Below, in pieces: positions 57,843 to 62,392 of a stretch of DNA of 64,000 nt. The notes beneath the pieces were generated by a model. It did no database searches. It had not been told where the DNA came from and was given only the letters and a program-made list of their open reading frames with translations. Origin of the DNA: Nocardia bhagyanarayanae (GTDB lineage Bacteria > Actinomycetota > Actinomycetes > Mycobacteriales > Mycobacteriaceae); the NCBI RefSeq assembly GCF_006716565.1, contig NZ_VFPG01000001.1, positions 620,001 to 684,000 of the forward strand, written 5' to 3'. Numbering within the stretch: the stretch's first letter is position 1; each line of letters starts with the position of its first letter. A program made the position numbers and the translations under genes.

Positions 57843-60698
57843 TTAGGCGATGACGCCCGGGACGCGGATGTGCGTCTCGGTCCCCACTCGCCACCAGGGC
57901 ACCGACACTGTTCCCGTCACCGCTCCCGAGAGCCGCACGCGCAGGTCCTCGTGCAACACCAGCTCACCCTCCTGCGGTGCGAGCGAGAACAGTTGGCGCA
58001 GTACCACTCCCAGCGGTTCGGCGGACCAGGACGTGCTGCGGCCGGTGCCGAGCACCTCGGCGGTCACCGACTCCGATACCAGGGGGAGGTCGAGCAAGGT
58101 CGCGAGGCTCGGGGCGGTCTCTTCATCGCCGAGCACCAACCGATCCGGCGGCAGCACGAGGCCGAACCACGGTAGATCGAGCACCATCGCGTCGGCGGCA
58201 GGCACGGCATCGCCGGACAGTGCGCGCACCCGTTCCGGCAGCACCAGCTCGGTGAGGTCCAGACGGGACGCCGCGGCGGCCAGGTGGCCGTGGGTGCGCG
58301 AAACGATCTGCGGCTCAGGGTTGTTCGCGGGGTCTGCCAGTGCGGCGAGCAGCGTCTCGGCGAGGTCCGGGGTGATTCGGTCCGGATCAGCGAGGACGGA
58401 GCGCAACACCTCCAGGTCGCCGTGGCTCAGGCCGGGCACCGCGAAATGCGGGAGGAGTCCGGCGAATTCGGCATCCCCCGGATGGAGATGGTGTCCGAGC
58501 GGGATGCCGTCGAGGCGGGCGTGCCTGCGCAGCCACCACGCGGTGTAGCCGTCCGGATCGGCGAGCAGACGCCTGGTCTTCGGTACGGCGAGCAGCTGGT
58601 GCAGCGCGTCCGGCCAGGCGATGTCGTCGATCAGGTCCAGGTCGCGGACGGCCGCGAACTCGGCAGGCTCCTCGGGCAGGCTCGCCCACCAGGCCTCTTC
58701 GTCGTCCAGATGGTGATCGGGCCCGGTCGGGTCGGACTCCGCGACGACGCCGAAATCCCAGCCGACGCCTACAGCCCGAAGCGCCTGCGCGCCGTACTCG
58801 TCCACGATCTCCTTGGCGACGGTGCCCAGCGGCGCGTCCTCGACGAGCAGCGCGTACAGCGGCGCCTCGGGCAGCAGCAGCTCGTCGGCGGGCAGCAGTT
58901 CGCCTGTGGTGTCCGGCAATTCGATCGAGCCGAGCCAGGGCGGAAGCGCGTCCGGATCGGCGTACGCGGCCAAACGGAGCACCGCGTCGACCAGGTCGGG
59001 GTCGTCGGGATGGTCTTCGAGGTCCGCGTGCAGCGCCGGGTCGGCGAGCAGGTCGGCAGCGGTGGCCGAGCGGGCGCCGAGCCTGGACAGCAGCGGGTGC
59101 GCGGCCTCCGGATGGACCAGGCGCGCCCAGTGCAGCGGGATGGCGACCTCGAGCATGTCGTCGAGGACGACCGTGCGCGGACCGGTCACCAGGCGGCCGT
59201 CGGCCAGCGGAACAGCCAGTGCGCCGAGCTCTTCGGCGGACAGCGGGTCGACGACGAACGGCTCCAGCGCCGCGTACCAATCCCGCCACCAGGCGGGCGG
59301 GCGCTCCACGCCGCCGGAGAGCTCGGCGAGCCGGGCGAGGCCGAGGCGGTGCACGTCGAGGACCGCGAGGGCCTCGGTGTGGGCGCGACCCGAGAGTTCG
59401 GGGATGAGCAAGGGGCCGGCGATGTCGTCGAGGAGGTCGGCCAATTCCGGTGTGAGGTCGGGGAAGACGCTCGCGCGGGCGGGTACCGCCGTCGGGATTT
59501 CGCTCGAGCCGACGGCAGGGGATGCGCCGGGGCCGGACTCCGGGGCTTCGGCGACGTGGCCCGGCTCGGCGGCGAGTTCGGAATCGGCGGCGAGGCTGGG
59601 GGTCGAGGGCTTGCCGACCACCGGAAGCCAAGAGTGGGTTTGCAGTTCGCTGATGAGGGCCTCGCGGAGCAGGCCGTCGACCTCGCTGCGGGCGAAGCCC
59701 GGTGTGGGGACCAGGACGAGACGGTCGGTCGGGGGCAAGGCCCGGGCGAACTCGGCGTAGCCGGAGGCCAGTTCGGCGACGCGGGCGCCGGGTAGCAGGC
59801 GGCGCCGGTCCGGTTGCATCGGAATGTCGGCGATCAGCAGGGCCGGGAGGGACAGTTCCTCGTCGGAACGCGTAGGTGCGCGCAGGACGTCGTGCGGTGC
59901 GGCGTGGGCTTTGCCGTCGCGCAGCGGCAGCAGCCATCGCGCGCGGGCGGTGCGGAACTGCCACCACGCTCGGCGGCGCCCATCCGGGCCCGTCACCTGT
60001 AGTTCCTGGAGGCCATCGCCGAGCTCGCGCGCCGCGGAGGTGAACTCGTCGTCGCCGATCCGAATGGATTGCAGGGCGGGCAGTTCCAGGAGCAGATCCG
60101 CGGCCTCTTCGCGCATGGCGGCGAGCAACGCGTCGGCGTCGATGTCGTCGTGCAGGCGCAATACGACTTCGGTGTCGAAGTTCGGCGTGGGAAGGGCCTC
60201 GAGCGGCCAGGTCAACCGGAGCGCCGGAGGTTGGAAGTCCGGCGTAGCTATCCCCTGCTGGCGCAGGGCCTCTCGCGTCCTGGCGCGGGAGAAGTGCAAC
60301 GAGCCCGTGGTGGAACGGAATTCGATGTCGTCGCTCACCGCGAGTACGGCGGTGAAGCCGACGCCGAACTTGCCGACGGAGGCCGGCTCCGCCTTGCCGG
60401 AAGCGCGCAGGGCGGTGAGCGCGTGGACGCCGGAAAGTTCCAAGGGCGCACCGGTGTTCGCAATGTACAGGGTGCGACCGTCCAGCCGGACGGAGACGCG
60501 CCCCGGGACACCCGCCTTGGCCGCGGCATCGGCGGCGTTCTGCGCCAGCTCGGTCAGCAGGCGATCGCGGTAACCGGCCCGGACCAGATCCGCCTCGGTG
60601 GCGGCATCCTCCCGCAGCCGGGTCGGCGAATCACGCCAGGAGGTGAGGACGGCGGCGCGCAGCCCCTCGGTGCCGAACAGGTCGGCCGAGCCCGTCAG
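57843..60698 (-). CDS. Large GHKL (HSP90/sacsin-like) ATPase protein, apparent CTG start
   Basis: About 951 aa if read from CTG at 60698. The N-terminal GHKL ATP-binding domain has Glu50, Asn54 and Asp57 in LLTELAQNAADAA, a G1-like ANTG at about 80-83 and GKFGVGF at 109-115, the pattern of sacsin/HSP90-like ATPases. The rest is long, Leu/Asp/Pro-rich and of unknown fold. No ATG, GTG or TTG exists in frame between the upstream stop (60756) and a TTG at 60443, which lies after the Asn box. The CTG overlaps the DUF3027 stop as CTGA, mirroring other overlaps here. An ATC at 60710 with GGAG upstream is an alternative. Function unknown; a chaperone-like role is possible. Confidence 0.7.
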   Translation of the reverse strand: MTGSADLFGTEGLRAAVLTSWRDSPTRLREDAATEADLVRAGYRDRLLTELAQNAADAAAKAGVPGRVSVRLDGRTLYIANTGAPLELSGVHALTALRASGKAEPASVGKFGVGFTAVLAVSDDIEFRSTTGSLHFSRARTREALRQQGIATPDFQPPALRLTWPLEALPTPNFDTEVVLRLHDDIDADALLAAMREEAADLLLELPALQSIRIGDDEFTSAARELGDGLQELQVTGPDGRRRAWWQFRTARARWLLPLRDGKAHAAPHDVLRAPTRSDEELSLPALLIADIPMQPDRRRLLPGARVAELASGYAEFARALPPTDRLVLVPTPGFARSEVDGLLREALISELQTHSWLPVVGKPSTPSLAADSELAAEPGHVAEAPESGPGASPAVGSSEIPTAVPARASVFPDLTPELADLLDDIAGPLLIPELSGRAHTEALAVLDVHRLGLARLAELSGGVERPPAWWRDWYAALEPFVVDPLSAEELGALAVPLADGRLVTGPRTVVLDDMLEVAIPLHWARLVHPEAAHPLLSRLGARSATAADLLADPALHADLEDHPDDPDLVDAVLRLAAYADPDALPPWLGSIELPDTTGELLPADELLLPEAPLYALLVEDAPLGTVAKEIVDEYGAQALRAVGVGWDFGVVAESDPTGPDHHLDDEEAWWASLPEEPAEFAAVRDLDLIDDIAWPDALHQLLAVPKTRRLLADPDGYTAWWLRRHARLDGIPLGHHLHPGDAEFAGLLPHFAVPGLSHGDLEVLRSVLADPDRITPDLAETLLAALADPANNPEPQIVSRTHGHLAAAASRLDLTELVLPERVRALSGDAVPAADAMVLDLPWFGLVLPPDRLVLGDEETAPSLATLLDLPLVSESVTAEVLGTGRSTSWSAEPLGVVLRQLFSLAPQEGELVLHEDLRVRLSGAVTGTVSVPWWRVGTETHIRVPGVIA

Positions 60699-62392
60699 TT
60701 CCGCGGCGATGACCCGGACTCCGGTCCCGCGTCGGTTTCGCTCTCCGCCGCGTCGTCAACTGCGGCGAGGTCACCCGATGCCAACGGCTGCCCCGTGTCG
60801 GTCTTCGAATCGAACCCGGCGGCAACATCGTTCGCAGCGCCTTCGGCCTCGCCCTCCGCCGCGGCAACATCCGCGGCGAGAAGGTCGCGCGTCGGCGACG
60901 ACTCCGCCGCCTCGGTCACCGACTCGGCGGCGCTCGGCTCCGAAGTCTCCGGTGCGTCGGACACGGGTGCGGGGGCGGCCTCAGCTACGGTCGAGCCCGC
61001 CGAAACACCGGCGTTGGCATCGGATTGCGCGACCGAGGAGTCTTCGAAGGACTCCGCGGCCATCCCGTCGCCGGCGTCCGAGCCGCCCGGCGCCACGCCC
61101 TTTTCGGCATCGACCGCATCTGCGACAACTGCCTCGGCCGCCGTCGCATCGGCAATCGCCTCCGGCTGCGCCTCGGCCGCGGCAGCTTCGGCGACCGCAT
61201 CCGACTCCGCCCGCTCCACGCCCACAGCACTCGTCGTGGCTTCGCCTTCGACAGCCGCTTGCCCGGCGTCCGCGACTCCCGGCTCGCCAGCGTCAAGCGA
61301 CGGGGCCTTCTCAGCCCTCACATCGCCAGCGGTCGCATCCGCGTCGGCGGCCGTCTCCGACACCAACGGGGCCACCTCGCCGCTCATCTCGGCAGCGTCC
61401 GCCTCGGCGGCGACAGTCTCCGTTTCCGATCGGACGATTTCGGCACTCACGTCGACAGCGCCGTTCTCCGGTGCGGCGGCAGTCTCCGGCAGCGACGGGG
61501 CCTTCTCAGCGCTCGCGTCCGCAGCGCCGTCCTCGATCGCGACACCGGTTTCCGGCACCGACTGGGCGACTTCGACAGCGGCCACCTCAGCGGAAGCACC
61601 TTCGTCCGCAACCTCTTCGGCAGCGGACCGCTCCCCCTTGCCCAATTCCTCCGGCGGAATCACGTCGAACGCCGCGTCGTCGTAGGCCTCGTACAGCGGC
61701 GAACCGTTACCCGTCGGCGCGACGACATCGGAGTGCGCGCCGCAGCCGTATTCGACGTGCACCACGTGTCCGTCCGCGCCCATCGCGTTGCCGCAGACGC
61801 CGAAAGCGGCGCGCAGGGCGCCCGCGAGCGGGAGGTAGAAGCCGCACTTGCCGCAGGTGGACGGCGCGGCCTTGGCCATCTCGGTGTCGGGGCCGTATTC
61901 GGAGTACCAGCGTTCGGCGGCCTCGATACGGCCTTCCTCGCTGAGCACCTTGGTGCGGCCGAGGCCGATCTCCAGCGCGACCTCGTCGACCTCCGGGTCG
62001 CCGCTGGTCACGTAGCCGGGCACCAGGCGGGGGTCGTCCTGCGGCGGGGCGAGCAGGTCGCCGGGCGCGAGATCGCCCGGGCGGATCCGCTGTTCCCACG
62101 GCACGAATTCGGGCGCGACCAAGGCGTCCGGGCCGGGCAGCAGCGCGGACTCGCTGACCGTCGCGTGGTCCGCGCCGGGCGGGGCCGCCACGACGACGGC
62201 CCACTGCCAGCCGCGGTAGCCGGGCAGGGTGGCCTCGAAACGGTGGGTCGCCGCGCTCTCGTCCTCGACGCTCACACCGAGGTGCGCGCCGACGGCGGAG
62301 GGCTCCAACTCCAGGAGCGCACGGCGGGCCAGGTCCGCGGCTTCGGCAAGGACCGGCCGGACGTCGGGCTCCGAAACAGATACTGCGCTCAC
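60695..62392 (-). CDS. DUF3027 protein with zinc-ribbon-like cysteines and acidic Ala-rich tail
   Basis: 565-aa protein. The first about 240 residues are the DUF3027 domain, with WQWAVVVAAPP and a Cys cluster STCGKCGFYLPL / GVCGNAM / GCGAHSD that could bind zinc. Residues about 245-565 are a repetitive Ala/Glu/Val/Ser acidic tail, probably disordered and longer than usual. GTG start, only 17 bp from the divergent glutaminyl cyclase. Its stop overlaps the ATPase start. Function unknown. Confidence 0.82.
   Translation of the reverse strand: MSAVSVSEPDVRPVLAEAADLARRALLELEPSAVGAHLGVSVEDESAATHRFEATLPGYRGWQWAVVVAAPPGADHATVSESALLPGPDALVAPEFVPWEQRIRPGDLAPGDLLAPPQDDPRLVPGYVTSGDPEVDEVALEIGLGRTKVLSEEGRIEAAERWYSEYGPDTEMAKAAPSTCGKCGFYLPLAGALRAAFGVCGNAMGADGHVVHVEYGCGAHSDVVAPTGNGSPLYEAYDDAAFDVIPPEELGKGERSAAEEVADEGASAEVAAVEVAQSVPETGVAIEDGAADASAEKAPSLPETAAAPENGAVDVSAEIVRSETETVAAEADAAEMSGEVAPLVSETAADADATAGDVRAEKAPSLDAGEPGVADAGQAAVEGEATTSAVGVERAESDAVAEAAAAEAQPEAIADATAAEAVVADAVDAEKGVAPGGSDAGDGMAAESFEDSSVAQSDANAGVSAGSTVAEAAPAPVSDAPETSEPSAAESVTEAAESSPTRDLLAADVAAAEGEAEGAANDVAAGFDSKTDTGQPLASGDLAAVDDAAESETDAGPESGSSPRN

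Follow-up and report, generated by a model that had tools for sequence, protein, structure and literature searches.

A GHKL ATPase gene of Nocardia that probably starts at an AUC codon inside the end of the DUF3027 gene

Gene layout and protein family at the junction

The window analysed here is a stretch of 64,000 nucleotides from Nocardia bhagyanarayanae (contig NZ_VFPG01000001.1, positions 620,001 to 684,000), and all coordinates below are counted from its first letter. On the minus strand, the end of a gene for a DUF3027 protein overlaps the beginning of a gene for a GHKL ATPase. The features of this junction are as follows:

60695..62392, minus strand: DUF3027 gene with a GTG start, 565 aa (PF11228, E 1.4e-81)
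60719..60722, minus strand: GGAG, Shine-Dalgarno-like, 8 bases before the ATC and inside DUF3027 (sequence, energy peak)
60708..60710, minus strand: ATC, best-supported start codon of the GHKL gene (comparative evidence from Nocardia and the Rhodococcus genus)
60696..60698, minus strand: CTG overlapping the DUF3027 stop (CTGA); codon 5 (Leu) if the start is the ATC
60695..60697, minus strand: TGA stop of DUF3027, 13 bases after the A of the ATC
57843..60710, minus strand: GHKL (Hsp90/sacsin-type) ATPase gene, 955 codons plus TAA counted from the ATC
60528..60551, minus strand: N box ELAQNAAD, residues 54-61 from the ATC (sequence)
60441..60443, minus strand: TTG, first canonical start codon in the GHKL frame, past the N box; rejected as start

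The GHKL frame is open from the TGA at 60756-60758 through the TAA at 57843-57845 and contains no ATG, GTG or TTG before the N box, which confirms what a sequence-only reading of the window had noticed. That reading was also right that the CTG at 60698 overlaps the DUF3027 stop as CTGA, and that an ATC at 60710 is preceded by GGAG. It placed the CTG directly before the segment LFGTEGLR; the codon does lie upstream of this segment, but six codons before it. The ATC stands four codons upstream of the CTG, so that DUF3027 and the GHKL gene, counted from the ATC, overlap by 16 bases, and 15 further codons of open GHKL frame precede the ATC in the window. The C-terminal 342 residues of the DUF3027 product (60698-61723, minus strand) are of low complexity, with 27% Ala and 13% Glu, and are fast-evolving.

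GHKL ATPases are marked by an N box with Glu, Asn and Asp, a glycine-rich G2 box, and a G1 box of the form DxGxG, in which Asp is usual. In addition to the N box, the product of the GHKL gene has a glycine-rich G2 box, GKFGVGFTA, at residue 113, and the place of the G1 box (60441-60458, minus strand; residues 85-90) reads NTGAPL, with Asn where Asp is expected. The product is an Hsp90/sacsin-type GHKL ATPase of a family that is already named: the NCBIfam profile NF047352 (sacsin N-terminal ATP-binding-like) scores 77.9 bits against a curated cut-off of 50, and the Pfam profile SACS (PF25794) reaches 19.2 bits, under its gathering cut-off of 32.8. The earlier suggestion of an undescribed chaperone-like system was thus not borne out, since NCBIfam already names the ATPase family. 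The comparison with sacsin N-terminal ATP-binding-like proteins (NF047352), Hsp90, TRAP1 and HtpG barely tests the C-terminal 600 residues, and residues 26-360 alone are covered by at least a fifth of the fold matches. In the predicted structure, residues 1-7 are disordered and helices span residues 14-27, 29-45 and 48-66. All three helices would be removed by a start at the TTG at 60443, from which an open reading frame of 866 aa without the N box runs; the loss of the Glu, Asn and Asp of ELAQNAAD by such a start had been correctly pointed out before.

Distribution of the ATC and CTG codons

Of 150 Nocardia genomes, 148 contain the N-terminal segment of the GHKL protein, and the start regions of all 148 were compared. 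A genome was counted as lacking a canonical start when no ATG, GTG or TTG follows the upstream in-frame stop before the conserved PFG segment is reached. This holds for 59 of the 148 genomes, in each of which the frame closes inside the fetched stretch, and supports the earlier proposal of a natural non-canonical start. The nearest relative (L112) is 94% identical over the N-terminal segment and has the same codons, GTC ATC GCC GCG GAA CTG. A sequencing error near 60690-60720, for which a check had been suggested, is rejected as the cause of the missing start codon: relatives share the site, and a start region of this kind recurs in the genomes just counted. In the next-nearest relatives, L113 and L114, TTG replaces the CTG and the ATC is unchanged.

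Of the 59 Nocardia genomes that lack a canonical start, 55 have an ATC no more than six codons ahead of the CTGA overlap; a script identified 54 of them, and L201 was read by eye. The exceptions are L170, with ATA, L258, with GTC, and L181 and L195, which have only the CTG. When the strict layout is demanded, the ATC is present in 51 of the 59 genomes without a canonical start versus 17 of the 89 with one. Genome L170 deserves a separate remark: the change of ATC to ATA gives DUF3027 an earlier TAG stop, and the CTG is retained, i.e., the NTG is kept though the DUF3027 stop has moved.

For an estimate that does not depend on the motif, a set of 79 Nocardia genomes was taken in which the DUF3027 stop lies at the overlap, out of 111 in which DUF3027 was located, with no condition on the ATC. 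Within six codons, ATC occurs in 59 of these 79 genomes versus 39 of 553 control windows. At the overlap itself stand CTG (66 genomes), TTG (6), GTG (6) and ATA (1), accompanied by ATC in 49, 4, 6 and 0 cases, respectively; the two TTG genomes without ATC are L116 and L128. The A of the ATC is at the same time a wobble base of DUF3027, and A makes up 5.7% of the wobble bases in the DUF3027 tail. On the tree of the 79 genomes, the base at the ATC place has changed 11 times; the other wobble columns of DUF3027 show a median of 33 changes, and none of them fewer than 17. In sets selected for the motif, the A changed 0 times in 55 and once in 70 genomes, but these counts are partly circular because the sets were chosen by the motif, and the figure from the 79 genomes is the fairer one.

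A second genus, that of L087 (titled Rhodococcus), which includes Rhodococcoides kyotonense (L088), was represented by 37 genomes, all of which contain the GHKL gene. Here, the ATC stands three codons before the stop-overlapping codon in 30 of the 37 genomes; this codon is CTG in 21 of the 30 and TTG in 9, with ATC present in all nine TTG genomes. The remaining seven comprise three with a GTG overlap and no ATC, and four (L284, L288, L289, L322) with GTC at the ATC place. The NTG is lost in two of the 37, L289 (GTA) and L322 (CTA), both of which also lack the ATC. The DUF3027 codon that carries the A of the ATC varies in this genus (CAA 14, GCA 8, GTA 6, CGA 2), and the A itself changed 3 times among the 37 genomes, little below nearby columns (4-14). 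L289 fits none of the candidate starts, as the region 25 codons before its PFG segment offers no canonical codon, ATC or CTG.

Among 27 loci from other genera, a canonical codon lies within 25 codons in 22. The other five consist of three loci with a misplaced anchor (L337, L346, L347), one with CTGA (L343) and one with ATC (L349). GTGA is found at the site in 17 of the 27 loci by manual count, with the TGA assumed to be the DUF3027 stop, and its frequency in other genera suggests that the gene may originally have started at an NTG at the stop. L349, from another family of the order, has no canonical start nearby and shows an in-frame ATC TCG GCC ACA before the conserved segment. In the search of the order, no match to the GHKL gene was obtained among the 13 listed genomes of the same-family sister genus g18; beyond the listed genomes, 58 further ones were without a match.

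Ribosome-binding and coding signals before the CTG

Shine-Dalgarno strength was expressed as the energy of pairing with the tail of the 16S rRNA. In the 55 Nocardia genomes with ATC at -12, to which the window belongs, the pairing energy peaks 5-9 bases before the ATC with a mean of -6.0, and an exact GGAG at the distance seen in the window occurs in 38 of the 55. At the place where a Shine-Dalgarno sequence for the CTG should lie, the mean in the same set is about -0.3 to -0.6. The energy is better for the ATC than for the NTG in 58 of 68 Nocardia genomes, and it beats the control mean of the respective genome in 59 of 68 Nocardia and 25 of 30 Rhodococcus-genus genomes. In the latter genus, the peak again lies 5-9 bases before the ATC and is better than that of the NTG in 28 of 30. 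A group of 13 Nocardia genomes, in which the ATC stands one codon further upstream, has the better Shine-Dalgarno sequence before the CTG (-6.0 versus about -4.2 for the ATC).

The pattern of base changes between the two codons provides a second type of evidence. From the ATC to the CTG, changes at codon positions 1, 2 and 3 number 7, 16 and 26 versus 132, 91 and 121 upstream, where the control columns were aligned without gaps in an indel-bearing tail, which inflates their counts. When positions 1 and 3 are compared, Fisher's test gives p 0.0008, or 0.001-0.002 if the control is longer, and not one of 70 control windows reaches this skew. In the unselected 79 Nocardia genomes, the corresponding counts are 17, 31 and 43 versus 147, 111 and 157 (p 0.0045). 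This pattern suggests that the GHKL frame is already translated ahead of the CTG. Codons -21 and -18 likewise change less at position 1 than at position 3 (7 versus 21), which is perhaps caused by a Shine-Dalgarno base. For the Rhodococcus genus, where only two codons separate the ATC from the NTG, no coding skew was found between them (9, 10 and 8 changes). An upstream limit is set by L124, in which an in-frame TGA stands two codons before the ATC, so that translation must start at CTC, ATC, GCC, GCA, GAG, CTG or later; the near-cognate codons among these are ATC and CTG.

Candidate start codons and their precedents

pcnB of E. coli starts at AUU, a rare start outside infC that is thought to keep expression low. 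It resembles the GHKL gene in having a rare start without being infC, but it encodes another enzyme and uses another codon. To our knowledge, bacterial genes other than infC very seldom have conserved AUC or AUU starts, with infC itself and pcnB as the known cases. A precedent within the genome of the window is provided by infC, identified by TIGR00168, which reads GGAGG CCCC ATC AGC ACT GAG. Its apparent ATC start follows GGAGGCCCC (L259 around base 1500, G000:C2:985830 region). Across 29 readable loci of 30 fetched, infC begins with ATC in 28 and with ATT in 1, all 22 Nocardia loci having ATC. L295 and L308 have a stop four codons before the ATC, which leaves few other codons that could be the start. 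Hence, AUC very probably functions as a start codon in this genome. Both infC and the GHKL gene would thus have a non-canonical AUH start with a Shine-Dalgarno sequence that is conserved in a group; however, infC encodes a translation factor, whereas the GHKL gene does not, and the start of the latter lies inside the upstream gene. PMC9845219 cites the autocontrol of E. coli infC through AUU, as well as 20 annotated genes with a CUG start across 69 bacterial genomes, and PMC9094748 describes AUC, AUU and AUA starts as rare.

From these comparisons, we infer with a probability of about 0.67 that the GHKL gene, encoding an ATPase of 955 residues, starts at the AUC at 60710, which would be read by the initiator tRNA as Met. 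Ribosomes translating DUF3027 might unfold its 3' end and thereby expose the GGAG and the AUC; the GGAG inside the end of DUF3027 would then position a ribosome at the AUC, from which the UGA is 13 bases away. Some ribosomes could load at the AUC directly, or reload there after the UGA of DUF3027, making translational coupling probable. The CTG would be merely the fifth codon, for Leu, and it ends in TG because the overlapping TGA dictates it. A weak AUC would hold the ATPase below the level of DUF3027 and, by analogy with infC, might make its synthesis sensitive to initiation fidelity, i.e., to IF3. A more far-reaching version, in which selection against stronger starts keeps the AUC and the ATPase and infC form a two-gene group co-regulated by IF3 in Nocardia and the Rhodococcus genus, is doubtful. 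If true, the amount of a chaperone-like ATPase in these two genera would be governed by initiation fidelity.

The sequence-only reading had preferred the CTG at 60698, with the ATC and its GGAG as second choice; this order should probably be reversed. A CTG start would be a drifted ancestral GTG at the DUF3027 stop that is reached by reinitiation after termination, and it is no new proposal, given that the database protein for this gene (P0001, 951 aa) begins there. Of the 79 overlap-set genomes, 78 do have an NTG that overlaps the DUF3027 stop, GTGA is common in other genera, and L195, L204 and L205 have GGGGGA followed by CTG, without ATC. One Nocardia group has GGAGGAGAA before the CTGA, though with a GTG downstream as well, and the group of 13 genomes pairs better with the 16S tail before the CTG. 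However, no Shine-Dalgarno sequence precedes the CTG in the 55-genome set of the window, the coding signature in the GHKL frame begins upstream of it, and the ATC is found mainly where canonical starts are missing. The TG can be attributed to the overlapping TGA; at this place, L289 has GTA and L322 has CTA. Initiation at the CTG in the window is therefore possible but unlikely. That both codons initiate, the AUC via the internal Shine-Dalgarno sequence and the CTG via reinitiation, with dominance depending on the lineage, seems more improbable still. The resulting two proteins would differ by four residues within the stretch predicted to be disordered, ATC and CTG coexist in 54 of the 59 genomes without a canonical start (by script), and groups differ in which codon has the Shine-Dalgarno sequence, but a single start fits the set to which the window belongs. 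The 13-genome group, L195, L204 and L205, the other genera and L289 together suggest that the start may have moved between codons, and the CTG may serve in some lineages.

Two further explanations were rejected. A fusion of DUF3027 with the GHKL protein by ribosomal frameshifting before the stop would draw on the open GHKL frame upstream of the ATC in the window, but in-frame stops lie at most 30 bases from the overlap codon in 7 of 70 genomes (the nearest at 18), no slippery heptamer was seen by eye, and the Shine-Dalgarno sequence stands at initiation distance, all of which leaves frameshifting with very little probability. Starts at the TTG at 60443 or at another internal GTG or TTG are what many automatic annotations propose: when 120 listed homologues were read manually, the PFG segment was present in about 45, and the other records, about 75, had an internal codon as their start, located inside or after the first helix. 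Against this stand an N box that is intact in all 148 Nocardia genomes (ELAQNAAD in 147, ELAQNAGD in 1), the PFG segment that is widely kept upstream of it, and the first helices, which belong to the modelled fold; an internal start thus has next to no chance of being the true one. Initiation at the AUC would, in turn, explain the N-terminally short homologue records.

An AUC start is of a known kind, and no report of one in this GHKL gene or in Nocardia was found in the open literature of PubMed Central. Kept over dozens of species in two genera, such a start would offer a natural setting in which to study how protein levels are set by initiation fidelity, IF3 and the coupling of overlapping genes.

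A last point concerns similarity to TmtA of PADLOC, which we take to be the Tiamat defence protein. The TmtA profile matches the N-terminal ATPase part of the GHKL protein (residues 18-230, best E 3e-33), but this match covers just positions 17-243 of the 1538 profile positions, and the occurrence of the GHKL gene in nearly all of the Nocardia genomes (148 of 150) is unlike what is expected of a mobile defence gene. In some genomes there is a second, longer gene, with an open frame of about 1570-1650 aa, whose ATPase domain is similar and which is possibly TmtA-like; examples are the matches at G008:C13:184449-184910 and G123:C3:357067-357432.
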